64,000 bases of DNA, from positions 1 to 64,000 of the forward strand of contig NZ_BCQV01000026.1 in NCBI RefSeq assembly GCF_001552255.1. Direction: 5' to 3'. Under the pieces are notes generated by a model, which was given only the letters and a program-made list of their open reading frames with translations, did no database searches and was not told the DNA's origin. Origin of the DNA: Alicyclobacillus shizuokensis NBRC 103103. GTDB lineage: Bacteria; Bacillota; Bacilli; Alicyclobacillales; Alicyclobacillaceae. Shown here in pieces: positions 51,477 through 64,000 of this stretch. The translations under genes and the position numbers were made by a program. Numbering within the stretch: position 1 is the first letter of the stretch; every line of letters starts with the position of its first letter.

Positions 51477-52049
51477 TCACACGACCTGATGGATACCCAC
51501 ACCAATCAGCAAAAATCCAGCGGCAAGCGAGGAATATTTCCCCAATAGACGTGACAGGAATCGAATCGCCATCGAGTTTCCGAGCCAAATCATGATATAA
51601 CCCCATCCTGTGATGCTCAACACGGTTATCCATACAGAGGCAGAATGGGCGACCGTCGCGCTGAATCCACTTGCGATATTCGTACAGGAAAGGGCCAATC
51701 CAAGCATGACCGCTTGTTTGAGGCCGGGGCTGGCAAGTTTCGTCACTGGTGCAGGGGGTGACGAAATTCGCGGATGCAGGTACGCTGAATAGAGGGAGAA
51801 CACGCCGATGGCACACAACACGAGGCACGCCACCCATCTCGCGCCTGCTGCGGAAATGTAGTGAGAAATCAAGCTGCCCGCGTACGTTCCAAGCAGGGTG
51901 GTGCAAAAACCGATTCCATTAATGATGGCGTTGACCCAGCCTTGAATGGTTATATTTTTCGTGTCGTACGCAATGCCTACGCCACAGTTGTCGAGGTTCG
52001 ATCCGATTCCAATCAGGTTGGCCATCACAAACGAGGACAACCAGTTCAT
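51477..52049 (-). CDS. YtaF/MntP-like sporulation membrane protein
   Basis: About 190 aa from the ATG at 52049; a further ATG at 52055 touches the GGGGGG ribosome site. Six hydrophobic segments in two repeats: MNWLSSFVMANLIGIGSNLDNCGVGIAYDTKNI, then INGIGFCTTLLGTYAGSLI, WVACLVLCAIGVFSLYS; and GLKQAVMLGLALSCTNIASGFSA, VWITVLSITGWGYIMIWLG, SLAAGFLLIGVGIHQV. The (N/S)LDN.GVG(I)xY pattern of repeat one fits YtaF/MntP-type transporters. Repeat two has TN in place of the usual Asp. Transported ion unknown. Confidence 0.75.
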   Translation of the reverse strand: MNWLSSFVMANLIGIGSNLDNCGVGIAYDTKNITIQGWVNAIINGIGFCTTLLGTYAGSLISHYISAAGARWVACLVLCAIGVFSLYSAYLHPRISSPPAPVTKLASPGLKQAVMLGLALSCTNIASGFSATVAHSASVWITVLSITGWGYIMIWLGNSMAIRFLSRLLGKYSSLAAGFLLIGVGIHQVV

Positions 52050-52426
52050 GCTCATCCCCCCGGGTCGTGATGTTTTCCAGGGTACGCGGGGACAAGTTCG
52101 AGAGAATTGGACAGCACGACCAAGCTTTCCGCCTATTTCTGGTGAAATCATGCGGCTTGGATGGGCGCAGGTTGGCTGGAAACGTTGAACACCGTGAGCA
52201 TCGGCCGACGCATGGGAACCTTCACGATTGGCGTTTGGGTGTCGTCGGACTCGCAGTGGCAACGAGTTTCATGAACTGTCGGTGTGCGGACCCGTATGTA
52301 CGGCGGAGTGGGGGTAGTCATTCCAGTGATAAGGGCTATACACATATTTCCTGAGTTCTCGAATATGGATTCCATTGACAATCTACGGGCGAAATATGAC
52401 CCACTCTTACATACACTCCACATTTA

Positions 52427-52441: not shown

Positions 52442-52695
52442 AAAAATACACGGGCTTTCCAATCCGCCATTTCAGAAACCGAAAATTTCAATGAAAGCCA
52501 CAGTACATGAGATTGTCGTTGAAAACATTGATGAAAGCAGAAAATCAAAAATTGAAATTAGGATACCTCTACAATGACTCGGTAATGACTCAATGTACGC
52601 ATAGAGACGGTCATGCCGGCTTGGCACCACGATCTATGAAAATGGTAATCAGCGGTTGTATTATGTTACCAGGCAGCCGCCCAGATCTCGAGAGT

Positions 52696-52788
52696 GCTTG
52701 GCGCTTCTTGAAAGATGGGCATCTGGAGTTGGACAGCAATCGGAGTGAGCGGTCGATTCGGCCGCATGTGTTGATGATTGGGGCATAG
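52696..52788 (+). pseudogene. IS66-family transposase C-terminal fragment
   Basis: The frame AWRFLKDGHLELDSNRSERSIRPHVLMIG resembles the conserved IS66 transposase segment (LEDGRLEIDNNRAERAIKPFVIGRK), after which similarity stops. Only about 30 codons remain, in a frame whose upstream part is unrelated. A remnant of an old insertion. Confidence 0.7.
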
Positions 52789-52821: not shown

Positions 52822-52837
52822 TGGCATGGAAATTGCT
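52822..52837 (+). promoter_or_regulatory. Sigma-54 promoter for the alpha/beta hydrolase gene
   Basis: TGGCATG-GAAA-TTGCT: GG and GC of the -24/-12 elements are exactly 10 bases apart, and the match to TGGCACG-N4-TTGCW fails only at one base. The start codon lies 48 bases further on, after AGGAGG. Confidence 0.8.
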
Positions 52838-52884: not shown

Positions 52885-53769
52885 ATGCAGGAACGGAAAG
52901 TATCATTTTTCAGCGATGGATACAAACTTGACGGAACTCTTTACCTGCCGGATGACATTCAGCCAGGCGAACGGAGGCCTGCTCTCATTCCCAACTCCGG
53001 ATTTCAAGGATTTAATCAATTTTATCCGAGATTGTTTGCACATGAATTTACAAAACGAGGTTACGTATGCCTTGGATTTGATTATCGCGGTTTTGCCAAG
53101 AGTGAAGGAACAAGAGGCCGGGTTATTCTCGATGAACAGGTTAAAGACATCATCAATGCCATTACGTTCCTACAAACGCAGGATGAAGTGGATCCTGGTA
53201 GAATCGGGATTCTTGGTTGGGGGATGGGGGCGTCCAATGTCGTGCGTGTTGCAGCGATGGACGACCGTGTTCTCGCTGTGGCAGCCCTAAACGGCTTTTA
53301 TAACGGAAAGAGATGGCTTCGTACCATACATTCGTATGTCGATTTCAATCATTTACTCGAGGAAGTCAAGGAGGATCGAATTCTCAGGGTTGTCAGTGGT
53401 CAGTCCAAAGAGGTCGAAACCTTCCACCATTATCCGCTTGATAGGATCACAACCGAGAATGTGAATGTCGAGCTCTCCTCTATTCCAGGGTTCGGACACC
53501 CAGTCACCATCGAGTTTACCGAATCAATTCTTAATTTAGATGCTGAAAAGGTCGTCGCGGAACTGTCGCCCATCCCCTTGTTTGTTGCGCATGGGAAGGG
53601 GAATTTGCTTCATCCCTTAGAGGAAGGTCAAAGTCTCTTTGCGGCAGCCCAAGAACCAAAGGAGTTTTATCTTATTGATGGACAACATAACGACTTTATG
53701 TATAAGGATCACCCAGAGTTTCAAGCACTTATCGAACGTTTAGTTCAGTTTTTCGCCGCGAACGTTTAG
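52885..53769 (+). CDS. Alpha/beta hydrolase with altered nucleophile elbow
   Basis: 294 aa, ATG 52885 after AGGAGG. Fold of the dienelactone/acetyl-xylan-esterase-like hydrolases: FSDGYKLDGTLYLPDD, PALIPNSGFQGFNQFYPRLFAHEFTKRGYVCLGFDYRGFAKSEG near 32-75, RGRVILDEQVKDIINAITFLQ, then DPGRIGILGWGMGASNVVRVA near 112. The elbow, normally G-x-S-x-G, reads G-W-G-M-G, so the nucleophilic Ser is replaced by Gly. Asp and His candidates remain (LFVAHGKGNLLHPLEE; DGQHNDFMY). It is either non-hydrolytic or uses another nucleophile. Sigma-54 promoter upstream; an IS1595 element separates it from its terminator. Confidence 0.82.
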   Translation: MQERKVSFFSDGYKLDGTLYLPDDIQPGERRPALIPNSGFQGFNQFYPRLFAHEFTKRGYVCLGFDYRGFAKSEGTRGRVILDEQVKDIINAITFLQTQDEVDPGRIGILGWGMGASNVVRVAAMDDRVLAVAALNGFYNGKRWLRTIHSYVDFNHLLEEVKEDRILRVVSGQSKEVETFHHYPLDRITTENVNVELSSIPGFGHPVTIEFTESILNLDAEKVVAELSPIPLFVAHGKGNLLHPLEEGQSLFAAAQEPKEFYLIDGQHNDFMYKDHPEFQALIERLVQFFAANV

Positions 53770-53798: not shown

Positions 53799-54810
53799 CA
53801 TGGCTATCCCCATGTCTCAGCTTGACTTGATACGCGAACGCATGTTTCCTAGAATCATTTTGAAAAACTAGAATCATGCATGACCGAGGCGACGCGCCGA
53901 TGTTTCAGCGCCCGATGACGCTTCTGGAGTTCCAAGCCAAATTCCCCACGGACGACGCATGCCGCAATTACCTGTTCTCCCTACGCTTTCCTGATGGATT
54001 CCGTTGCCCGCGGTGCGGGCATGACCGGTTCTACGTGATCCGGAGCCGACACCTGTTGCAGTGTCAGTCGTCCGCTTGCCGACATCAGACTTCCCTGACG
54101 GTCGGCACCATCTTCGAAAAGTCGCGCACCCCACTGCGCAAGTGGTTCTGGGCGATCTTCCTCGCATCCCACGACAAGCGGGGCATATCGGCGTTGACTC
54201 TTGCGCGCGAAATTGACGTCACCTACAAGACCGCTTGGGCGATGCTGCACAAGATCCGCCACGCCATGCGCACCCGCGAGCAATCCTACAAGCTCGGCGG
54301 TATCGTCGAGGTGGACGAGACGTACGTCGGCGGTCCTGGCGAGAACCCGAAACCAGGGCGTGGTACCAACAAGACGCCCACCCTCGTCGCACTGTCGCTG
54401 TCTCCCGACGGGAAGCCCGGCTACTTGCGCATGCAGGCCGTCGAGAATGTGAAGGGTGAGACCATCGCTGCCTTTCTGAATCAGCATGTCGAGAAGGAAG
54501 CGACCATCGTGAGCGACGGGTTTCCCTCCTACGCGCCCGTGGCTCAAGACCGGCCGGTGTTGGCGATGAAATTCGACCCTAAGAATAATCCGGACCATAT
54601 GAAGTGGCTGCACCGCGCCGTGTCCAACGCCAAAACTTTTCTGCTGGGTACGTACCACGGGATCAAGGGCAAGCATCTGCAAGCCTATCTGAGTGAGTAC
54701 ACGTATCGGTATAACCGTCGCCATTTCCAGGGCGAATGGTTCAATCGCTTGCTACAGGCATCCATTTCTGCCAGTCCCATCACCATTGCTGAACTGACGG
54801 GATAGCCATG
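53799..54810 (+). mobile_element. Complete IS1595-family insertion sequence
   Basis: 1012 bp. Ends are perfect 12-bp inverted repeats, CATGGCTATCCC (53799-53810) and GGGATAGCCATG (54799-54810); a further TCAGC match 6 bases inward extends the similarity. One transposase gene fills the element and its stop codon lies in the right repeat. GC content of the element is higher than its surroundings. Confidence 0.92.
53876..54805 (+). CDS. IS1595-family transposase
   Basis: 309 aa from ATG 53876, with an alternative ATG at 53900. N-terminal zinc ribbon FRCPRCGHDRFYVIRSRHLLQCQ...C (four Cys, about 40-65), then a helix-turn-helix region, and the ISXO2-like catalytic domain: GIVEVDETYVGGPGENPKPGRG near 142, EATIVSDGFPSY near 205, and KWLHRAVSNAKTFLLGTYHGI near 245. 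Ends LSEYTYRYNRRHFQ as in ISXO2-like proteins. Appears intact and probably active. Confidence 0.94.
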   Translation: MHDRGDAPMFQRPMTLLEFQAKFPTDDACRNYLFSLRFPDGFRCPRCGHDRFYVIRSRHLLQCQSSACRHQTSLTVGTIFEKSRTPLRKWFWAIFLASHDKRGISALTLAREIDVTYKTAWAMLHKIRHAMRTREQSYKLGGIVEVDETYVGGPGENPKPGRGTNKTPTLVALSLSPDGKPGYLRMQAVENVKGETIAAFLNQHVEKEATIVSDGFPSYAPVAQDRPVLAMKFDPKNNPDHMKWLHRAVSNAKTFLLGTYHGIKGKHLQAYLSEYTYRYNRRHFQGEWFNRLLQASISASPITIAELTG

Positions 54811-54866: not shown

Positions 54867-55196
54867 GTAATAATATTTTTACGTTCTTCTCCACGGGGCA
54901 GTGTCTTGTTAATAAGTGTGCTGCAGAGCGCAGGACCGGGTCGATGAATGTGCGCCTTCCGTCCCGGTCATCGTGACTCCCGCCGAGAGATTGTCAAACC
55001 AGATCTTCCTCAGAACACGGTTCCTATCCGTACAAAGATGCATTTCATTGCCTCCAGGAAGCATTCAGGGTTCTCCTTCCATATCCTTTTGCCAGTGATT
55101 TGTGACAGGTAAAAATATCTTAATCCACGTCAAAAAAAATTAACGAATTCCTCGCGTATTTTGCTTTGCGGCTATTACAACCTTGCCACAGTGCCT
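54867..55196. other. Intergenic region upstream of the sigma-54 operon
   Basis: No gene is visible. It contains the inverted repeat GACCGGG (54935 region) and CCCGGTC (54964 region) about 22 bases apart, and an A/T-rich stretch with phased A-runs at about 55110-55145. These could be the enhancer-binding site and the bend usual for sigma-54 promoters; neither role is shown. Confidence 0.4.
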
Positions 55197-55212
55197 TGGC
55201 ACGATTTTTGCT
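55197..55212 (+). promoter_or_regulatory. Sigma-54 promoter of the importer/oxidase/nitrilase operon
   Basis: TGGCACG-ATTT-TTGCT matches the -24/-12 consensus (TGGCACG-N4-TTGCW) at every position, with GG and GC 10 bases apart. It is 45 bases before the first start codon. The -24 box is also the right half of a GTGCC-TT-GGCAC palindrome (55191-55202). Confidence 0.88.
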
Positions 55213-55256
55213 TCTCTAAGTTCTTGAAAGCGATGAACCGAGCGAGGTGAAGGCGA

Positions 55257-56138
55257 TTGTCCAGGTTTCATCCTCTGCTGCGAGACGGCATTGATATGCA
55301 CGTCCACAGTTATCCAAGCATCTTCCCCCGCAAACAGTCCGATTGGGAACTGATTCACGATGTGAAAGAAGCTCAGATGGCGGGCGTCGTGCTGAAGTCC
55401 CATGAATCCCAGACAGTTGACCGAGCTCACTTGATTCGCATGAAAGAGCCTGGTTTGCATGTATACGGTGGCTTGGTTTGTAACCACTTTACCGGCGGAC
55501 TGTCTGTTGCTGCGGTCGACGCTGCGCTGCGACTTGGTGCAAAAGTCATTTGGATGCCAACCTTTTCATCAAAGCAGCATCAAGACCACTTCGCGAAAAA
55601 GAAGACCAAATTCTTTACGACAGATCGCGCTCTAGTTCACCCGGAAAAGGGGCTTGAGATTTGGGACGAGGATAGGGAACTCCTAAGTGAAGTCCATGAA
55701 ATACTCTCGTTGATTTCCGAAGAAAGCGCCATCTTGGCAACTGGTCATTTGTCCGAAGAAGAGGTTCTTGCGCTCATGGCGGCTGCCAAAGAACACAAGG
55801 TGGAGAAGATTTTGATTCAGCACGCCGACCTCGGGATTGCTCCTCTTTCGAGCGATGTTCAACAATTACTGGCCCGTCAAGGGGCTTTTATTGAGAAGTG
55901 CTATCTGGCGTGTAGCGCTGACTTTCGAGACATTTCTGTTGAACAGATGGCTGCGAGTATTCGTGCACTAGGTGCTGAATCCTGCGTGCTCGTAACCGAT
56001 TATGGTCAAACGCACAATATCCCTCCGGTTGCAGCGCTAAGTGAATTTGTCACAGAACTCGTAGCATGTGGAATTTCAGAGAGCCAGATTGAACATATGC
56101 TGTCGAGTAATCCAAAAGCATTGTTAGGCATCAGATAA
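55257..56138 (+). CDS. DUF6282-like amidohydrolase-type protein
   Basis: 293 aa from a TTG at 55257 (GAGGTGAAGG upstream). DGIDMHVHSYPSIFPR near the N-terminus gives the H-x-H metal pair of amidohydrolase or PHP-like barrels; further His and Asp occur in KSHESQTV near 45, ATGHLSEEEVLAL near 158, ILIQHADLGIAPLS near 182 and LVTDYGQTHNIPPV near 242. The order H-x-H, H, H, H, D fits a metal-dependent hydrolase. DUF6282 is my best family guess. First gene of the sigma-54 operon; substrate unknown. Confidence 0.72.
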   Translation: MSRFHPLLRDGIDMHVHSYPSIFPRKQSDWELIHDVKEAQMAGVVLKSHESQTVDRAHLIRMKEPGLHVYGGLVCNHFTGGLSVAAVDAALRLGAKVIWMPTFSSKQHQDHFAKKKTKFFTTDRALVHPEKGLEIWDEDRELLSEVHEILSLISEESAILATGHLSEEEVLALMAAAKEHKVEKILIQHADLGIAPLSSDVQQLLARQGAFIEKCYLACSADFRDISVEQMAASIRALGAESCVLVTDYGQTHNIPPVAALSEFVTELVACGISESQIEHMLSSNPKALLGIR

Positions 56139-56172
56139 ACTTCCAAATACCTGGACCAAGGGGCTGTTTAAC

Positions 56173-56826
56173 GTGGAGTTGTTAGCTTTTTTTCAATCTC
56201 ACTGGTCTGAAGCCGTCGGATTGACCTTGCAACACTTGCGACTTGTCGGGGCATCCGTCGGGATTGCCATTGTTACCGGGGTTCCCCTGGGGATCTACGT
56301 GAGCCAAAAGGAGTCCCTAGCTGAATTTATCCTGGCTCTGGCAGGCATGGTGATGACGATTCCGAGCATTGCCATGTTCGGCATTCTCATTCCAATTCTA
56401 TCATTAATCAACCAAGGCATCGGATTTCTCCCGGCAGTCATCGCCCTAATTCTCTATTCCGAGTTACCCATTATTCGAAATACGTACCTAGCTATTAAGA
56501 ATGTTGACCCATCAGTGCGTGATGCTGCGGTCGGGATGGGGATGACACCGCGTCAAAGATTATTGAAGGTAGAATTGCCAATCGCGATACCCGTCATAAT
56601 GGCTGGGGTGCGAGTTGCTGTGGTCATGACCATCGGGATTGGAGCTATCGCGGCTTATATTGGAGCAGGTGGACTGGGAGTTTACATCGCTCAAGGGATT
56701 TCGAATAGTTATACAACCATGATTCAAGCCGGTGCTGTTGCGGTGTCCGTGCTGGCCATCTGTGCGGACGTCATATTGGCATCAGTCCAACGCCTTTATA
56801 CACCGAAGCGTCAAGCTACGACTTAG
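56173..56826 (+). CDS. OpuC-type ABC importer permease (first)
   Basis: 217 aa, GTG 56173. BPD_transp_1 permease of the osmoprotectant/quaternary-amine type: SHWSEAVGLTLQHLRLVGASVGIAIVTGVPLGIYVSQ, TIPSIAMFGILIPIL, and the EAA-like loop VDPSVRDAAVGMGMTPRQRLLKVELPIAIPVIMAGVRVAVV near 120-160. About six helices. Works with the ATPase, second permease and binding protein that follow. Confidence 0.92.
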   Translation: MELLAFFQSHWSEAVGLTLQHLRLVGASVGIAIVTGVPLGIYVSQKESLAEFILALAGMVMTIPSIAMFGILIPILSLINQGIGFLPAVIALILYSELPIIRNTYLAIKNVDPSVRDAAVGMGMTPRQRLLKVELPIAIPVIMAGVRVAVVMTIGIGAIAAYIGAGGLGVYIAQGISNSYTTMIQAGAVAVSVLAICADVILASVQRLYTPKRQATT

Positions 56827-56847
56827 GACAGAGGAGGCATCACCATA

Positions 56848-57840
56848 ATGATTGAGTTTCAACATGTGACGAAGGTTTATCAGTCGGCGGGTGCGACGAC
56901 GAAAGCGGTAGATGATGTGAGTTTCGCAGTAGAAGAAGGCGAAATTTGTGTTCTTCTCGGTCCCTCGGGGTGTGGCAAAACGACTCTTCTCAGAATGGTT
57001 AACCGGTTAATTGGATTGACGAATGGAGACATCATCGTCAACGGTCGAAACATCAATAGCGTCAATCCAGTTGAACTGCGTCGGACGATTGGTTACGTGA
57101 TTCAGCAGACGGGGCTATTTCCCAACATGACCATTTTCGACAACGTATGCACGGTTCCTAAAATGTTAGGTTGGAGTCGCGCTAAAATGCACGACCGTTA
57201 CGAAGAATTGATGGTGATGATTGGACTTGATCCAAAAGAATATGCAAAACGGTTTCCATGGGAATTGTCTGGGGGACAACAGCAACGCATTGGTGTCGCA
57301 CGGGCGTTGGCTGCAGATCCGCCGGTGATGTTGATGGATGAGCCCTTTGGAGCGTTGGACCCAATAATTCGCGACCACCTTCAGCGTGAATTTTTGAAGA
57401 TTCAACAGACCGTAAAGAAAACAATTGTCTTCGTGAGTCATGATTTGGACGAAGCACTCACACTAGGTGACAAAATTGCCATTCTTAAGTCGGGTAAGCT
57501 CATGCAGTTTGGAACGCCGGACGAGATTCTTTCGGCACCCGCAAATGACTTTGTTTCAAGTTTTATCGGAGCCGATAAGTCCTTAAAGAGACTAAGCTTG
57601 TTTACTGCTGGGCAGCTCCTGCAGTCTCGACGGATCACACGCATCTGTTCAAGTAAACCTTCTGTGGCCGTGCAGATGGATACAGATCTTCGAACGGTGC
57701 TTGCGCATATTCTAGCCGATCCGAACGGCGAAGTGAGCGTGTTAGACAAAACTGGTAATTGCGCAGGTGTGATCCATTACAACGATCTCGCTCGTTTTCT
57801 GGAGGATGATTCGAACGAAATGGAACCAGCGGCCAATTGA
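56848..57840 (+). CDS. OpuC-type ABC importer ATPase
   Basis: 330 aa, ATG 56848 after GAGGAGGC. Walker A LLGPSGCGKTTLLRMVNRLI near 35, Q-loop YVIQQTGLFPNMTIFDNV near 83, LSGGQQQRIGVARALA near 138, Walker B VMLMDEPFGALDP near 158, and HD loop FVSHDLDEAL. A C-terminal extension (about 245-325) carries one CBS-like repeat (VAVQMDTDLRTVLAHIL... GVIHYNDLARFLEDD), shorter than the usual tandem pair, which senses ionic strength in OpuA-type systems. Confidence 0.93.
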   Translation: MIEFQHVTKVYQSAGATTKAVDDVSFAVEEGEICVLLGPSGCGKTTLLRMVNRLIGLTNGDIIVNGRNINSVNPVELRRTIGYVIQQTGLFPNMTIFDNVCTVPKMLGWSRAKMHDRYEELMVMIGLDPKEYAKRFPWELSGGQQQRIGVARALAADPPVMLMDEPFGALDPIIRDHLQREFLKIQQTVKKTIVFVSHDLDEALTLGDKIAILKSGKLMQFGTPDEILSAPANDFVSSFIGADKSLKRLSLFTAGQLLQSRRITRICSSKPSVAVQMDTDLRTVLAHILADPNGEVSVLDKTGNCAGVIHYNDLARFLEDDSNEMEPAAN

Positions 57841-57854
57841 GGTGGGGGAGCGCG

Positions 57855-58583
57855 ATGGCGAAGCAAAAACTGGAGTTAACGGTCCGATTGCTTGTTGTCG
57901 TTGTCGTTGTGGCTTATCTGTTGTGGGCTTACGTGCTAGGCTCGTTTTCTTACATGGTGGAAAACAGTAGTCAAATGGTATTTATGTGTGTGCGTCACCT
58001 TCAACTCGCTGGCATCTCCTCCCTGTTGGCTGTCATCATTTCGGTGCCCGCTGGCATTGCTGTGACAAGAAAATCGATGAGAAGGTTCTCATTTGTCGTG
58101 GAGAACATTGCAAACCTCGGACAAACCATCCCCGGATTGGCCGTGATGGCGCTTGCAATGACCTACATGGGTGTCGGAATGGAAACGGCAATCTTTGCAA
58201 TCTGGGTCTATTCTCTGCTTCCAATTCTGCGCAATACTATCGCGGGACTGGAAAGTGTCAATACGGCAATCCTTGACGCTGGAAAAGGGATGGGGATGAC
58301 GGCAACACAGATCTTTTTCAAGTTGGAGCTGCCAAATGCGGCACGAACAATCCTTGGCGGTGTCAGGACATCCATCGTGATTAACGTGGGTACCGCAGCG
58401 CTTGCGTCACTCATTGGGGGAGGTGGTTTAGGTGACCTAATTTTTATGGGGATTTCGCTGGACGACACAGGAACAATGCTTGCGGGGGCCATTCCTGTTA
58501 CTTTCTTAGCATTTTTTATCGATTTCTTACTCGGAAGGCTAGAGAAGATTATCGTTCCAAAGGGATTACGAGCACAAAATTGA
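57855..58583 (+). CDS. OpuC-type ABC importer permease (second)
   Basis: 242 aa from ATG 57855 (GGTGGGGGAG upstream). Helices near 10-30, 45-75, 85-110 and beyond; conserved VENIANLGQTIPGLAVMALAM, VNTAILDAGKGMGMTATQIFFKLELPNAARTILGGVRTSIVINVGTAALASLIGGGGLGDLI near 140-205 (EAA loop). Paralogue of the first permease. Confidence 0.92.
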   Translation: MAKQKLELTVRLLVVVVVVAYLLWAYVLGSFSYMVENSSQMVFMCVRHLQLAGISSLLAVIISVPAGIAVTRKSMRRFSFVVENIANLGQTIPGLAVMALAMTYMGVGMETAIFAIWVYSLLPILRNTIAGLESVNTAILDAGKGMGMTATQIFFKLELPNAARTILGGVRTSIVINVGTAALASLIGGGGLGDLIFMGISLDDTGTMLAGAIPVTFLAFFIDFLLGRLEKIIVPKGLRAQN

Positions 58584-58593
58584 AGAGGTGATC

Positions 58594-59532
58594 ATGTTGA
58601 AGAAAAATGGAATCCAACTAACTTCATTGCTGAGCATTCCGCTGCTGCTTTCACTTGCCGCCGGGTGTGGCACGGCTTCCGATCAATCAACCAGTGGGAA
58701 TATGGCTAGCAACAAAGGGACGGTTGCTGTTGGTGGAAAGGACTTCACTGAACAGCGGGTTCTCGAAAAAATGACCGCAATCTACTTGAAAGAGCATGGC
58801 TATCAGGTCAATGAATCGACGAACCTCGGTTCCACCGTAGCTTGGTCCGCGTTACAACACGGTCAAATCGATATGTATTGGGAATATACGGGGACTGCGT
58901 TAGTTGTCTACGACAAACAGCCCGCTGAGTCACAACCTCAGGTGGCGTACGACAAAGTAAAACAACTTGACGCGAAGAGTGGATTATCCTGGCTTGATCA
59001 ATCCCAAGTCGATGACACTTACGCCATTCTCATGAGCAAATCTGAGGCTCGGAAGGACGGAATTAAGACCATTTCGGATTTGGCCAAGTATGTCAGCCAA
59101 CATCCGTCCTTTAAGTTCGCGACGGATAACGAATTTTATGGACGATCCGATGGGTTGCCAGGTCTTGAAAAGAAGTACGGCTTTAAGTTTGCCACGCAGG
59201 ACGTTGTGAGGATGGATGCCGGTCTGGTTTACAACGCATTGAAGGATAATCAGGTCGATGCCTGTATGGGGCTGTCCACGGATGGGCGAATTAAAGCTTA
59301 CAATCTCGTGGTACTGAAGGATGATAAGAACTTCTTCCCGGCGTACTATGCGGCACCCGTCGTTCGGACGGACACTCTAAAGAAATATCCGGGTCTGAAA
59401 TCGCTGCTAAATAAGCTGGCCGCAAAGTTAAGTTCAGACGCGATGACGGAGTTGAATTACGAAGTCGATGTTCAGCACAAGGACCCATCCGAAGTGGCTA
59501 GAACCTGGTTGTCTTCTCAACACCTGATTTAG
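58594..59532 (+). CDS. OpuC-type substrate-binding lipoprotein
   Basis: 312 aa from ATG 58594 (GAGGTG just upstream). Signal peptide with lipobox LSLAAGC near residue 22-28; the mature protein binds substrate outside the membrane. Family pattern: VAVGGKDFTEQRVLEKMTAIYLKEHGYQV near 45, NLGSTVAWSALQHGQIDMYWEYTGTALVVY near 75, and YNALKDNQVDACMGLSTDGRIKAYNL near 210. Relatives bind glycine betaine, choline, carnitine or similar; the ligand here is not deducible. Gene order (permease-ATPase-permease-binding protein) differs from B. subtilis opuC. Confidence 0.92.
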   Translation: MLKKNGIQLTSLLSIPLLLSLAAGCGTASDQSTSGNMASNKGTVAVGGKDFTEQRVLEKMTAIYLKEHGYQVNESTNLGSTVAWSALQHGQIDMYWEYTGTALVVYDKQPAESQPQVAYDKVKQLDAKSGLSWLDQSQVDDTYAILMSKSEARKDGIKTISDLAKYVSQHPSFKFATDNEFYGRSDGLPGLEKKYGFKFATQDVVRMDAGLVYNALKDNQVDACMGLSTDGRIKAYNLVVLKDDKNFFPAYYAAPVVRTDTLKKYPGLKSLLNKLAAKLSSDAMTELNYEVDVQHKDPSEVARTWLSSQHLI

Positions 59533-59619
59533 ACCCCTGAATTGTCTGTCCGGGGTGTGCTTCGTGGACAGCCGGGCCACCCTGGAATGGATATTTGAAG
59601 TCGTAAGGAGTCCTGCTCT
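59533..59619 (+). other. Short gap with weak hairpin inside the operon
   Basis: ACCCC...GGGGT (59533-59559 region) could form a weak hairpin directly after the binding-protein stop; binding-protein genes often have such 3' structures that stabilise the upstream mRNA. The AAGGAG site for the next gene follows. Confidence 0.35.
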
Positions 59620-61032
59620 ATGAGTTATGGTGACGCATCACAGGTAGTAAGCGAACTTCACGGTAAATTGCAACGGGAAATACTGACGGATGAAGCGGAC
59701 CGTTGGAGTTACAGCTTTGACGCGTCCTTTGGCACCTTCCTTCCGGACGCCGTGATTCAGCCAGTGAGTCGGGACGAGGTGGTTAAAATTGTCCAGACTG
59801 CGGTCAAATACCGTGTTCCAATCTATCCACGAGGCACGGGGAGTTCGTTGAGTGGAGGGCCGTTGCCCGTATATGGAGGTATTGTTGTTGATACGTCGTG
59901 GATGAGAGATAAGCTGGAAGTTTACCCAGATGACTTAGTTGCCGTCGTGTCACCAGGGATTCACACGGCTGAAATTCATCGCGCAGCTGAGGCATACGGT
60001 CTGTTCTATCCACCAGACCCAAGCAGCTCAGAGGTTTCCACAATCGGTGGGAATGTTGCGGAGAACTCGGGCGGACCACGAGGACTGAAATATGGTGTAA
60101 CCCGAGATTACGTTCTAGGATTGGAGATTGTCACGCCTGAGGGTGGAGTTCTGCGAACGGGCGGAAGAACGGTAAAAAACGTCACCGGTTACGACTTGAC
60201 AAGGTTGATTGTTGGCTCTGAAGGCACGTTAGGAATTGTAACTGAAGTGATTCTGCGGCTTGTCCCTCGGCCCCAGGATCGAAGGACTGCCCTGATTGTT
60301 TTCGACGATCTCGTTTCATCGGGACGGGCCATTTCCAAAGTTTTAACTTCCGGGATTCTGCCTTGTGCCATTGAACTCATGGATCAAGCTTGCTTGATAG
60401 CGGTTGAATCCTATCGCCCGAGCAACTTACCGACAGATGCACAAGCTGCTTTATTAATTGAGGTCGATGGTCATCCGGAGGCCGTGAGAGATGAGATCAA
60501 GAAGGTTGAAGCCATTTGTTTAGAACTCGGCGCGAAAGAAGTCAGAGTTGCGCGGAATGAAACCGAGCGGCAGCAATTGTGGTTTGCTCGCAAGCAGATT
60601 TCGCCGGCCATCGCCAGAATAAAACCAACGAAAATTTCAGAAGATGCAACAGTTCCGCGCAGTCAAATCCCTGAGATGTTTCGCCGATTGAATCAGATTC
60701 GTGAGAAGTATGACCTTCAATTGGTTGTTTTCGGACATGCAGGGGATGGGAATTTACATCCAAACATCATGTGCGACATTCGCGACGATGAGGAAATGGA
60801 GCGGGTAGAAGAAGCTGTGTCAGAAATCTTTCGCGCAGCTATCGAACTTGGTGGCACCCTATCCGGTGAACATGGGATTGGCACCATGAAGGCTCCGTTT
60901 CTTCCCATGGAAATCGGTGAGATAGGGCTTGACATGACACGCCGGATTAAAGCAGCGTTCGATCCGTTGAACATCATGAATCCCGGGAAAATCATACCGA
61001 ACAACGAGCGAAACAGGGTGGTATTGAGATGA
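59620..61032 (+). CDS. GlcD-type FAD-linked oxidase subunit
   Basis: 470 aa, ATG 59620 (AAGGAG upstream). PCMH-type FAD domain: VPIYPRGTGSSLSGGPLPVYGGIVVD near 70, DPSSSEVSTIGGNVAENSGGPRGLKYGVTRDYVLGLEIV near 128-165, LIVGSEGTLGIVTEVILRLVP near 198; C-terminal FAD-oxidase domain with FGHAGDGNLHPNIMC near 370 and LGGTLSGEHGIGTMKAPFLPME near 410. Oxidises a 2-hydroxy acid such as glycolate or lactate in relatives. Its Fe-S partner follows with a 4-base overlap; no glcE. Confidence 0.92.
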   Translation: MSYGDASQVVSELHGKLQREILTDEADRWSYSFDASFGTFLPDAVIQPVSRDEVVKIVQTAVKYRVPIYPRGTGSSLSGGPLPVYGGIVVDTSWMRDKLEVYPDDLVAVVSPGIHTAEIHRAAEAYGLFYPPDPSSSEVSTIGGNVAENSGGPRGLKYGVTRDYVLGLEIVTPEGGVLRTGGRTVKNVTGYDLTRLIVGSEGTLGIVTEVILRLVPRPQDRRTALIVFDDLVSSGRAISKVLTSGILPCAIELMDQACLIAVESYRPSNLPTDAQAALLIEVDGHPEAVRDEIKKVEAICLELGAKEVRVARNETERQQLWFARKQISPAIARIKPTKISEDATVPRSQIPEMFRRLNQIREKYDLQLVVFGHAGDGNLHPNIMCDIRDDEEMERVEEAVSEIFRAAIELGGTLSGEHGIGTMKAPFLPMEIGEIGLDMTRRIKAAFDPLNIMNPGKIIPNNERNRVVLR

Positions 61033-62300
61033 AATCGCCCGAACTGCCTTATGCGGATACATTGAAGTGCGTACAGTGCGGGTACTGTTTACCTGCGTGT
61101 CCCACGTACCAAACGACCGGGAACGAGACGCAGTCGCCGCGGGGACGCATTAACCTCGTTCGTCTAGTCGCGGAGGGAAAGATTTCAGATGAGTCTCTTT
61201 TAGAGGGACCGATTGATCTATGCCTCGGCTGCAGAGCCTGTGAAGAAGCCTGTCCTGTTGGTGTACCGTATGGAGAAATTCTGGAGCAAACACGGTATTT
61301 GCTGCGGGAGCATTCCACCAAGAGAGGGTTGGGTCAACGGGTTCAAACGGCTATTTATCGACATCTTCTGCCGGACAAAGGGCGGCTTAACCTTCTCGGC
61401 GACTTTATTTGGTTCTATCAGCAGACGATTGGGCGTTGGCGTTTGATGAACCGACTGTTGCCGTTGCGGGAGTTCGTCGAGATTATGCCCAAGATTGAAG
61501 GGCCGATTGTTCGTCGCCGGAAAGAATCTAAAGAATCTATTCACGCGCGGCAAGGGAATAAAAAGGTGATGTTCTTTCGCGGGTGCATCATGGACGTGAT
61601 GTTCTCCTCTATCAATCGCCAGACGACAGAGTTGTTAAGACACTTGGGTTGGAGTCCAATTGTCCCGGAAGAGCAAACCTGCTGTGGTGCCCTTCACGCT
61701 CATGCTGGGGATCTGGAGTTCTCTAAAGAATTGGCCAAGAAAAACATCATGGCATTTGAAGCAAGTGGAGCCAGGGTAATTGTTCACAATGCGGGCGGAT
61801 GCGGTGCTATGCTTTACGAATACAAACATCTTTTTGAGGGTGACTCGGAGTGGGCAGAGAGAGCGCGGAAGTTCTCTGACTCTGTTCAGGACATCAGTCA
61901 AATTGTTGCTTCATCTGAACAAGGTAAATTCGCGAAGGCTGTCGATGCCGTCGTCACATATCAATGTTCCTGCCATCTGAATCATGTTGAAAAAGTCAAA
62001 AGTGAGCCCGTGCAAGTCATCAAGAATTTGCCCGGGGTTACCTATAAACAGCTCCCGAACGGCACTTCCTGCTGTGGCTCAGCCGGAATCTATAACTTGG
62101 TTCACAGGAAAGAGGCTGACGCAATCCTGCAGGCTAAAATGTCGGATGTTAAGAAGGTGAATGCACAAGTCCTCGTCACGTCGAATCCTGGGTGCTACTT
62201 ACAAATGAAATTAGGAATCCATCAAGCTGGACTGTCAAAGCAAACAAGAGTCGTTCATTTGGTGGAGTTATTGGCAGAGGCAAGTGGAACAGCAGATTGA
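61029..62300 (+). CDS. GlcF-type iron-sulfur oxidase subunit
   Basis: 423 aa, start ATGA in the glcD-like stop. Two 4Fe-4S motifs: CVQCGYCLPACPTY near 13 and CLGCRACEEACPVGVPYGE near 67; two CCG domains with EEQTCCGALHAHAGD near 218 and NGTSCCGSAGIYNLVH near 345. Passes electrons from the flavin subunit to the membrane pool. Confidence 0.93.
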   Translation: MKSPELPYADTLKCVQCGYCLPACPTYQTTGNETQSPRGRINLVRLVAEGKISDESLLEGPIDLCLGCRACEEACPVGVPYGEILEQTRYLLREHSTKRGLGQRVQTAIYRHLLPDKGRLNLLGDFIWFYQQTIGRWRLMNRLLPLREFVEIMPKIEGPIVRRRKESKESIHARQGNKKVMFFRGCIMDVMFSSINRQTTELLRHLGWSPIVPEEQTCCGALHAHAGDLEFSKELAKKNIMAFEASGARVIVHNAGGCGAMLYEYKHLFEGDSEWAERARKFSDSVQDISQIVASSEQGKFAKAVDAVVTYQCSCHLNHVEKVKSEPVQVIKNLPGVTYKQLPNGTSCCGSAGIYNLVHRKEADAILQAKMSDVKKVNAQVLVTSNPGCYLQMKLGIHQAGLSKQTRVVHLVELLAEASGTAD

Positions 62301-62347
62301 ATTCTTCACGAGGCTTCATTTGTAGAGGATAAGAGGGGAAATTCACA

Positions 62348-64000
62348 GTGACGAACAGGGCTCCCTTTGTCGTGGCGGCCGTTCAGTTTAACCCACGATT
62401 GAATGATAGAGAACATAACCTTGCAGCCCTATACGAGATTGTAGAGCGAGCGGCAAATGCTGGGGCAAAGCTAATTGTTACGCCAGAAATGGCGACGACG
62501 GGGTATAGCTATCCAAACCGGGCTGCCATTGCCCCGTTCGTCGATACGATCCCTGGCGTGACGACAGAGTTGTTTGCGGAATTAACTCGTCAATACAATG
62601 TCTACGTTGTTGTCGGAATGCCCGAAGTTGAGTTAGAAACGAACTTTTATTATAATTCGGCGGTGCTTATTGGCCCCAAGGGGGTTGTCGGTTGTTATCG
62701 AAAAATCCATTTATGGGAAGTTGAAGCCCATTGGGCCCTGAGCGGGAATCTTGGGGTACCGGTATTTGATACAGATATAGGAAAGATTGCGATAAATATT
62801 TGTATGGATGCGAATTACTTTGAATCGGCGCGGCTCGCGGCTTTGGGAGGGGCAAATATCCTGGCCTTCCCTACCAATTCATCGCTCCAAACGATTTCCA
62901 TCTTACAAGCTCGCGCTGAGGAAAACGGACTATTCATTGTCAGTGCGAACCGTTCGAACACAGAGCAAGGATTCCATATGGTTGGAGCGAGTGCCATTTG
63001 GTCCCCATTTGGTGAAAAGTTAGCTGAGGCCGATTTTGTTCCATCCCCTGAGCAAGATATCCATGAATCAACTGTGATTTACGCCACAATCGATCCAACG
63101 TTATATGATAATCCAGCAAGAAGACGCTTCATACAGCGTCGACCTGCTCTTTATAAGGAACTCATGCTGCATATCGCTCCGTGGAACAATTCGGCGAATC
63201 AAAGCTCCCAACATGTCAAGGTCGCCGCAATACAGTATGAACCTATACTCAAGGAGAAAGCCAAAAATTTGGTGAAAATCAAGGGTATGATTTCACAGTG
63301 CGTGGCACAAGGCAAATCCACTGGCAAGGAGGTGGACCTTGTTGTCCTTCCAGAGTTGTGTTTCACTGGAGTCGATGAATCCTGGGGAAAAGACGAGATG
63401 GCCAGTTTGGCAGACGATCTCAACAGCGTGTATATACGGGAGCTTGTCGAATGTGCCATGATACATCAGATATATGTCGTGGCCGGGTTCATTGAGCGGG
63501 ATCGTGATCGTCTATACAATTCAGCGATCTTGATTTCACCGCACGGAACAATTGTTGGGGTGCACCGTAAAACTCATTTGAATCAGTTTGACAGAACTTG
63601 GGCCATGGCTGGAGACCAGGTTGATGTGTTTTCAATCAACATCGGGCGGATTGGAATACTCATTGGTTCCGAAGTTCTTTTTCCTGAACTGTCTGGCCTG
63701 ATGGCTGTCAAGAGAGCTGACATTCTTACGATTCCTTCCAGCTGGCGCGGGGAATTTGGGAATCGGATTTCTTTTCACAAGGGAAGTGGCCAAGGCGTGT
63801 TCCCAGAGGGCGTACTCACGATGTGGAATCGAACAGCTTTGGACACACAGGCCTATACCATTGTGTCCAATTTTGTCGGCACGGTGCTTGGTTTTCAAGG
63901 TACAAGCGCCGTCTACATGTTGGACCCGCTGTACAGTGGCGAAGTACCTGTTATTGCCCCAACCAATTGCGAAGAGGTCTTGATTGCCGAATTCGACACA
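62348..64000 (+). CDS. Tandem nitrilase-superfamily protein (cut by the window edge)
   Basis: Begins at a GTG at 62348 (AAGAGGGG upstream) and stays open for 551 codons to the right edge, so the end is missing. Domain 1 (about 8-280): VVAAVQFNPRLNDREHN, Glu in IVTPEMATTGYSYP, Lys in GCYRKIHLWE, Cys in INICMDANYFESAR, a complete Glu-Lys-Cys triad. Domain 2 (about 295-551): VAAIQYEP, Glu in VVLPELCFTG, Lys in VHRKTHLN, but the Cys position reads GILIGSEVLFPEL, so Cys is replaced by Gly. The first half is probably an active C-N hydrolase (nitrile or amide) and the second a degenerate partner. Last visible gene of the sigma-54 operon. Confidence 0.85.
   Translation, partial: MTNRAPFVVAAVQFNPRLNDREHNLAALYEIVERAANAGAKLIVTPEMATTGYSYPNRAAIAPFVDTIPGVTTELFAELTRQYNVYVVVGMPEVELETNFYYNSAVLIGPKGVVGCYRKIHLWEVEAHWALSGNLGVPVFDTDIGKIAINICMDANYFESARLAALGGANILAFPTNSSLQTISILQARAEENGLFIVSANRSNTEQGFHMVGASAIWSPFGEKLAEADFVPSPEQDIHESTVIYATIDPTLYDNPARRRFIQRRPALYKELMLHIAPWNNSANQSSQHVKVAAIQYEPILKEKAKNLVKIKGMISQCVAQGKSTGKEVDLVVLPELCFTGVDESWGKDEMASLADDLNSVYIRELVECAMIHQIYVVAGFIERDRDRLYNSAILISPHGTIVGVHRKTHLNQFDRTWAMAGDQVDVFSINIGRIGILIGSEVLFPELSGLMAVKRADILTIPSSWRGEFGNRISFHKGSGQGVFPEGVLTMWNRTALDTQAYTIVSNFVGTVLGFQGTSAVYMLDPLYSGEVPVIAPTNCEEVLIAEFDT

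Follow-up and report, generated by a model that had tools for sequence, protein, structure and literature searches.

The 64,000-nucleotide stretch of DNA analysed here, to which we refer as the window (Alicyclobacillus shizuokensis NBRC 103103, assembly GCF_001552255.1, contig NZ_BCQV01000026.1, positions 1-64,000, forward strand), ends in a set of genes that we interpret, with a probability of roughly 0.6, as an acquired regulon under sigma-54 and two-component control, for taking up and breaking down a small amide that is probably zwitterionic or cationic and may be methylated. The larger part of the set is an operon of eight same-strand genes behind a -24/-12 promoter at 55197-55212, which, judging by open reading frames and Pfam matches, encode a DUF6282 protein, an OpuC-type importer (four genes), GlcD- and GlcF-type subunits and a two-domain nitrilase, with spacing from a 4-base overlap up to gaps of 87 bases. 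While an inducible catabolic operon is a known kind of system, this gene set was not found described in the literature searched: a search on the gene combination returned nothing relevant by title, searches for described regulons yielded none with these enzymes, and a word search of one regulon paper (PMC6615313) found no mention of nitrilase, betaine, methyltransferase, amidohydrolase, OpuC or glycolate.

The main points of interest are an entry module that appears to have been exchanged over a constant enzyme core, and a fused nitrilase domain that appears to be dead. If the interpretation is true, it provides a first functional setting for DUF6282, it predicts an amidase whose compartment matches the importer, and it describes a recurring inducible pathway of Bacillota whose substrate could be sought by screening a single binding protein for ligands. 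The dead domain, conserved as it is, would likewise present a defined test case for the role of the pseudoenzyme half in a fused pseudo-dimer.

Gene set and its conservation

A previous, sequence-only reading of this DNA had counted seven genes behind the promoter, one fewer than are found there, and the gene families it named agree with Pfam. It had missed an alpha/beta hydrolase gene at 52885 with a -24/-12 site of its own, and an insertion sequence (IS) transposase of the IS1595 family between this gene and the operon. The features are as follows.

52822-52837, + strand: second sigma-54 -24/-12 site, TGGCATGGAAATTGCT (pattern scan), 63 bases before the alpha/beta hydrolase start
52885-53769, + strand: alpha/beta hydrolase, regulon member (Pfam Peptidase_S15/Hydrolase_4; relatives in 12/12 OpuC-type and 7/7 GltS-type loci)
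53876-54805, + strand: IS1595-family transposase, not part of the system (NF033547, 203.4 bits, cut-off 75)
55128-55147, + strand: weak candidate activator-binding palindrome (motif fitted on 31 promoters, score 8.4)
55197-55212, + strand: sigma-54 -24/-12 promoter, TGGCACGATTTTTGCT (pattern scan)
55257-56138, + strand: DUF6282 predicted metal-dependent hydrolase, TTG start (PF19799, 227.6 bits; predicted amidohydrolase-superfamily fold)
56173-56826, + strand: OpuC-type permease, first (PF00528)
56848-57840, + strand: OpuC-type ATPase (TIGR01186, proV subfamily, 333 bits, cut-off 326.6)
57837-58583, + strand: OpuC-type permease, second (PF00528)
58588-59532, + strand: OpuAC-type substrate-binding protein (PF04069, 243.8 bits)
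59620-61032, + strand: GlcD-type flavin adenine dinucleotide (FAD) D-2-hydroxyacid dehydrogenase (PF02913, PF01565; TIGR00387, 496.4 bits, below the cut-off of 567.9)
61029-62300, + strand: GlcF-type Fe-S subunit (PF02754, Fer4; NF008434, 253.3 bits, below the cut-off of 333)
62348-64081, + strand, last 81 bases beyond the window: two-domain nitrilase/amidase, tandem CN_hydrolase (PF00795, two stretches)

Related loci were collected through a species-genome scan with the nitrilase (best 80 of 152 relatives), through plasmid searches, and from 398 genomes of the class, the organism's own included; they were reached via nitrilase or DUF6282, and absence of these two is under-sampled. Genes were counted at preset identity limits, with kinase and activator queries from locus L030. 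Loci L028, L036, and L040 share genomes with L142, L143, and L148; they are omitted from the counts for the 12 loci described below and represent these genomes in the export test and in the nitrilase tree. A hybrid locus, L091, with a kinase, an activator, a binding protein and a GltS-type gene, was excluded from both groups.

Twelve further loci of the OpuC type, all in Bacillota, carry the set. All 12 encode the hydrolase, DUF6282, a histidine kinase, an activator, the first permease and the ATPase; the tandem nitrilase is present in 11, the second permease, GlcD, and GlcF in 10 each, and the binding protein in 8, the missing importer genes falling at the ends of the stretches read. A gene of the MmgE/PrpD family (PrpD) is also found in 7 of the 12. 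In seven other loci, the GltS type, the hydrolase, DUF6282, GlcD, a GltS-type symporter and a GntR regulator are present in all seven, GlcF in six and the nitrilase in four, while OpuC genes, kinase and activator are found in none at the identity limits used. Being a regular member of the set elsewhere, the alpha/beta hydrolase belongs to the regulon as its ninth gene. The conserved co-occurrence that the sequence-only reading proposed as a check is borne out. Of the 398 genomes, 11 encode the hydrolase (E<=1e-50) and 10, all among these 11, encode a close DUF6282 (E<=1e-100); genome G241 possesses hydrolase and nitrilase and no close DUF6282.

Sigma-54 promoters and control genes

The promoter at 55197-55212, TGGCACGATTTTTGCT, matches TGGCACGNNNNTTGCW without a mismatch, as had been read from the letters alone, and it is the sole perfect match in the window. 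With up to 2 mismatches the window holds 9 matches, below the 14.9 expected, so that only the perfect match and its location support the promoter. With the pattern TGGCAYRNNNNTTGCW and up to 1 mismatch, two sites are found in 50-64 kb, at 55197 and at 52822, both perfect. The relatives were searched with one mismatch allowed outside the GG and GC cores, a site counting as upstream when within 170 bases of a cluster gene. The 12 OpuC-type loci (250 kb) hold 35 -24/-12 sites, 29 of them upstream of cluster genes, with all 12 loci represented and the sites 41-79 bases before the estimated start (single exception at 139), while first-order resampled sequence of the same loci yields, over 20 rounds, a mean of 5.85 sites in all and a maximum of 9. 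The 55197 promoter thus belongs to a conserved set. In the seven GltS-type loci (151 kb) there are 3 sites, and none of the 45 cluster gene starts is preceded by one. For a palindrome fitted at 31 promoters, TTTGTAAAAATTTTTACAAA, the mean of the top 16 scores is 17.3, versus 9.6-11.5 after refitting on resampled sequence, a signal that A-tracts may explain; the score in the window, 8.4, is not significant alone, as 65 of 310 control sequences reach 8. Scans for sigma-70 promoters and terminators gave counts about as expected from shuffled sequence.

The genome has one match to rpoN (PF04552, contig C40, 214.5 bits) and nine, including two weak ones, to the sigma-54 activator family. The window's contig (C26) ends at 64401, and its last 324 bases (64078-64401, minus strand) encode the C-terminus of an NtrC-type activator. 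The rest of the matching activator, 351 residues running to the end of contig C6, comprises a receiver (92.6 bits) and a sigma-54 domain (240.4 bits) with a GAFTGA loop, and it is directly preceded by a histidine kinase gene (C6:88636-90780), whose product, compared over residues 3-697 of 701, shares 44% identity with the kinase encoded in the Schinkia azotoformans cluster. The activator is apparently split across the C6/C26 contig break beyond the window; the two contig ends share no exact overlap of at least 9 bases, and for this reason the junction is one that we infer. It is supported by congener G048, in which one contig holds both the left flank of the island (the window as far as 51155) and the tRNA-Leu found on C6, 6.5 kb apart.

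The previous reading had proposed sigma-54 control, with an activator gene to be looked for beyond 64000. An rpoN gene is present, an NtrC-family activator is encoded directly beyond the operon, and control by a histidine kinase/activator pair, as supported by these sequences, would refine that proposal. The putative arrangement (kinase, activator with receiver, AAA domain and GAFTGA loop, and -24/-12 sites at the transcription units) resembles sigma-54 two-component catabolic regulons. NtrB, the kinase of the nitrogen regulators NtrB/NtrC, has no extracytoplasmic sensor and answers to PII, whereas the kinase here possesses a dCache-type sensor region, and so does not match that layout.

An apparently exchanged entry module

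Neither in the window nor in any of the 11 OpuC-type loci tested does the nitrilase have an export-type N-terminus, while a signal-like or lipoprotein-like N-terminus is recognized in the GltS-type loci (4/4), in loci with a neighbouring chemoreceptor gene (6/6) and in loci with MttB-family genes (3/3). Hydropathy and start codons were judged by eye in this test; the nitrilases of L033, L035, L038, and L039 could also start at a late codon, which would remove the signal, and that of the OpuC-type L052 has a hydrophobic stretch in the open upstream frame. A tree of the enzyme core (hydrolase, DUF6282, and GlcD; 18 rows, midpoint root, L051 and L056 excluded) puts L148, a Melghirimyces locus of the OpuC type, together with L147 and L149, both of the GltS type (100% support), and joins the GltS-type Priestia plasmid locus L106 to the OpuC-type loci (98% support). 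In the tree built from the nitrilases, the copy from Melghirimyces (L040, of the same genome as L148) is found among the cytosolic copies, and the Priestia copy groups with the export-type copies (100% support). The discordance of L148 between the two trees suggests that the match of compartment and importer does not reflect mere ancestry. Taken together, these sequence comparisons indicate that the importer, the regulator and the compartment of the nitrilase switch jointly while the core stays the same, as a module that would have been exchanged. No direction of exchange is claimed, as the ancestral importer type is not settled by the midpoint-rooted core tree.

One implication is that the same amide would be cut inside the cell after uptake by OpuC, or outside before uptake by GltS. 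We would put at about even odds the more specific proposal of a hitherto undescribed pathway for a zwitterionic amide, with a constant core (alpha/beta hydrolase, DUF6282 amidohydrolase, and GlcD/GlcF) served by one of two entry cassettes, either OpuC, a cytosolic tandem nitrilase and a kinase/sigma-54 activator pair, or GltS, an exported tandem nitrilase and GntR, with an active and a dead domain obligately fused in the nitrilase.

Tandem nitrilases are also found in other settings. An export-type copy is directly followed by a dCache chemoreceptor gene in L032-L035 and L057, and more distantly in L027 (Pfam checked for L033; four others are 69-75% identical, L027 27%), as if the extracellular hydrolysis product were an attractant. 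A separate clade without the export-type N-terminus (by eye) is represented by L043-L048, L050, L053, and L054, from Bacillaceae such as Halobacillus and Pontibacillus, with no catabolic cluster in the stretch read. In Agrobacterium fabrum, a 36% identical tandem nitrilase is encoded on the pAt plasmid after an Urt-like ATP-binding cassette (ABC) importer and an ANTAR regulator (L107:4222-11740).

The enzymes and the importer

The predicted structure of the DUF6282 protein is of high confidence (mean predicted local distance difference test score 93.1, predicted template modelling score 0.91), and the best 50 structural neighbours listed, with Z of about 19-21 over ~235-260 residues, are mostly phosphotriesterase-like, isoaspartyl dipeptidase, dihydroorotase, dipeptidase or TatD proteins; a Foldseek search with the model places 2-pyrone-4,6-dicarboxylate hydrolase at rank 24. 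Seven residues are invariant in 38 aligned sequences (H15, H17, K47, H49, H164, H189, and D248), sitting at or after model strands 1, 2, 5, 6, and 8. The model predicts an amidohydrolase-superfamily triosephosphate isomerase (TIM) barrel, with HxH at strand 1, a His following each of strands 5 and 6 and an Asp following strand 8. Such a barrel and HxH would be shared with the phosphotriesterase-like lactonases, isoaspartyl dipeptidase, dihydroorotase and 2-pyrone-4,6-dicarboxylate hydrolase of that superfamily, while DUF6282 differs in an invariant Lys-x-His after strand 2. The shared fold assigns no substrate. By sequence, no match to solved chains was found at E<=10, and the literature search for DUF6282 found no paper naming it.

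DUF6282 genes are also found beside PIG-L-family genes (L141:6962-9996, L157:9041-10892, and L161), and the genome of the window has a second copy of this kind on contig C24. In Thermus oshimai, such a neighbourhood also holds a gene annotated as 4-carboxy-4-hydroxy-2-oxoadipate aldolase, and some DUF6282 proteins may act in aromatic ring-cleavage routes.

The first nitrilase domain matches the PH0642/PaNit-type amidases (1j31 and 3ivz) over ~220 residues with Glu-Lys-Cys kept, as Glu47-Lys119-Cys152 in the window and in all 78 relatives counted (31 near, 47 far). The protein differs from that type in its tandem second domain, in which Gly440 replaces the Cys, as Gly does in all 78 relatives. 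Of 84 nitrilase matches, 79 were of sufficient length for the alignment; one of these, L106, lies outside both counted groups, which leaves 78. By title, searches on two-domain nitrilases found no paper on this protein, and those on nitrilase pseudoenzymes nothing relevant; a search on nitrilase with MttB and betaine found none.

Adjacent GlcD- and GlcF-type subunits are a likeness to the GlcDEF glycolate oxidase. This identity was considered and rejected, with both equivalog cut-offs missed, and no glcE gene is found between or beside the two genes in the window. Among solved proteins, GlcD is nearest to glycolate oxidase (9qgz, 308.7 bits) and the LctD lactate dehydrogenase (296.1), and more remote from D-2-hydroxyglutarate dehydrogenase (153). 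Of the NCBIfam models, that of a lactonase family comes closest to the alpha/beta hydrolase, at 102.1 bits versus a cut-off of 400.

The importer has the full OpuC/ProU set, with an OpuAC binding protein, a proV-subfamily ATPase over its cut-off and two permeases, and in this composition it resembles the quaternary amine importers OpuCA-CD, ProVWX, OsmF, and EgtU. It differs from them in its linkage to catabolic enzymes and sigma-54 control, and in a fourth position of the presumed aromatic cage that is not Tyr. The nearest solved relatives of the binding protein are OpuCC and ProX, together with sensors built from proteins of this kind, and at three of the four positions that we take to be those of the OpuCC aromatic cage the window has Tyr. 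Equivalog cut-offs for characterised osmolyte systems (OsmF, ChoXWV, ProVWX) are missed by the importer (257/483.75 for the choline ATPase, 99/439 for ProW). Of the quaternary-amine importer named in the sequence-only reading the family stands, and the assignment is at family level only.

Proposed pathway and alternatives

In the proposed scheme, an extracellular ligand would activate the histidine kinase, in which the dCache-type domain is recognized, and the kinase would phosphorylate the NtrC-type activator, which in turn would open the two -24/-12 promoters. The OpuC-type ABC importer would take the substrate in, and nitrilase domain 1, with its catalytic residues in place, would hydrolyse the amide in the cytosol, domain 2 contributing structure or specificity as its fused partner. 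One or two further cuts, of an ester, a lactone or an amide, might be made by the alpha/beta hydrolase and DUF6282, and GlcD/GlcF, given their family, would oxidise the D-2-hydroxy acid so formed to a 2-oxo acid and pass the electrons to quinone. Relatives with an export-type nitrilase have a GltS-type symporter in place of the OpuC importer, which is what one would expect if hydrolysis of the amide took place outside the cell and the acid were then imported.

Several observations weigh against this scheme. GlcD and GlcF both score below their equivalog cut-offs, the binding protein is below the OsmF cut-off (178.7/400), and the fourth position of the presumed cage is Leu in the window and Phe in all 12 aligned relatives (9 genomes), so that a quaternary-ammonium ligand is not assured. 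The dCache_1 match of the genome's kinase (44.7 bits, E 1.6e-11) is just under the cut-off of 45, and the match of its relative in L030 is 80.2 bits. L051 and L056 have no GlcD/GlcF in the stretch read, with the gap not at the stretch ends; L145 holds a single-domain nitrilase instead of the tandem one; the sole -24/-12 site of L148 carries one mismatch, 139 bases upstream; and the split between export-type and cytosolic copies in the nitrilase tree has 67% support. PrpD was not found in the window's genome, in a search that had no positive control.

The clues to the substrate point either to a methylated or quaternary amine or to a hydroxydicarboxylate, and none is decisive. The former is suggested by the OpuC family and by the genes of the MttB family that adjoin export-type nitrilases in L026, L029, and L041 (417.5, 412.5, and 98.8 bits; L029 81% and L041 24% identical to L026), the L026 protein being nearest to the solved glycine betaine methyltransferase. 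The latter is suggested by the GltS-type symporter and by eight clusters with GlcD/GlcF and a more distant DUF6282 (39-44%; L151-L155 and L158-L160), which also encode a major facilitator superfamily (MFS) transporter and GntR (8/8), a metallo-beta-lactamase-fold protein (7/8), and a relative of L-2-hydroxyglutarate oxidase (6/8). On this basis, a tentative alternative, which we hold to be unlikely though to be taken seriously, is that an OpuC-type binding protein was recruited for a non-quaternary ligand, the amide or lactone of a C5 hydroxydicarboxylate being degraded, with D-2-hydroxyglutarate converted to 2-oxoglutarate by GlcD/GlcF. It would account for the replacement of OpuC by importers of the sodium/glutamate symporter family, and for the oxidase relative in the distant clusters, where the reference protein reaches 590 bits, against a cut-off of 299, as L-2-hydroxyglutarate oxidase. 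In its favour are also lactonase models, the best in NCBIfam for the metallo-beta-lactamase-fold protein (far below cut-offs) and the nearest for the alpha/beta hydrolase, and the solved relatives of GlcD, which include D-2-hydroxyglutarate dehydrogenase. However, GlcD is nearer to glycolate oxidase and LctD than to that enzyme, and the tandem nitrilases beside MttB-family genes in the three anaerobe loci are of the same family, favouring a methylated amine.

A nitrogen-scavenging regulon, whose purpose would be the release of ammonia by the nitrilase and whose kinase and activator would form a general nitrogen sensor, seems improbable to us. Nitrilase-superfamily amidases do release ammonia, and the activator is of the NtrC family with a receiver domain, but the kinase has a dCache-type sensor region both in this genome and in L030, on account of which the nitrogen-sensor reading was rejected, and in three of the seven GltS-type clusters the 20 kb read contain the remaining core genes and no nitrilase. 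Even less probable is a mainly osmoprotectant importer, with the catabolic genes as unrelated neighbours assembled by insertion elements. The OpuC family and the IS1595 copy in the island would fit, but the same genes are together in 12 further OpuC-type loci, and sigma-54 sites precede importer and enzyme genes alike; with the catabolic linkage conserved, osmoprotection alone was rejected.

The three MttB loci are from anaerobes (L026:3158-11725, L029, and L041) and encode an export-type tandem nitrilase, an MttB-family methyltransferase and an MFS transporter. In L026 and L029, B12-binding corrinoid-type genes are also found beside the tandem nitrilase.

The island

The G+C content of the window is mostly 0.59-0.64 before 50 kb and 0.48-0.53 from ~52 kb on, and that of the kinase and activator stretch on C6, adjoining the tRNA-Leu (C6:88024-88111), is 0.45-0.47. 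Both congeners sampled carry different genes at the island position, and in neither was a match found to the nitrilase (E<=1e-40), DUF6282 (E<=1e-20) or the hydrolase (E<=1e-50). Transfer, suggested earlier from base composition, agrees with these data, which would fit an insertion next to a tRNA gene, at a variable site. Insertion ends are not shown, as the tRNA-Leu region and window 49-56 kb share only two short matches of 12-16 bases. Around the IS1595 copy, no inverted repeats of at least 14 bases were found, and a fragment at 52507-52788, IS66-like by eye, had no Pfam match at E<=1e-5.

The IS1595 transposase gene separates the alpha/beta hydrolase and DUF6282 genes, which are adjacent in several relatives. 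The tRNA-Leu is found at the edge of the low-G+C island (L172:13024-13111, equal to C6:88024-88111; L176 and L177 were compared). At the left edge, window 51480-52262 on the minus strand encodes a member of the MntP putative manganese efflux family (49.5 bits), and a stretch homologous to this gene region is present in congener G136.

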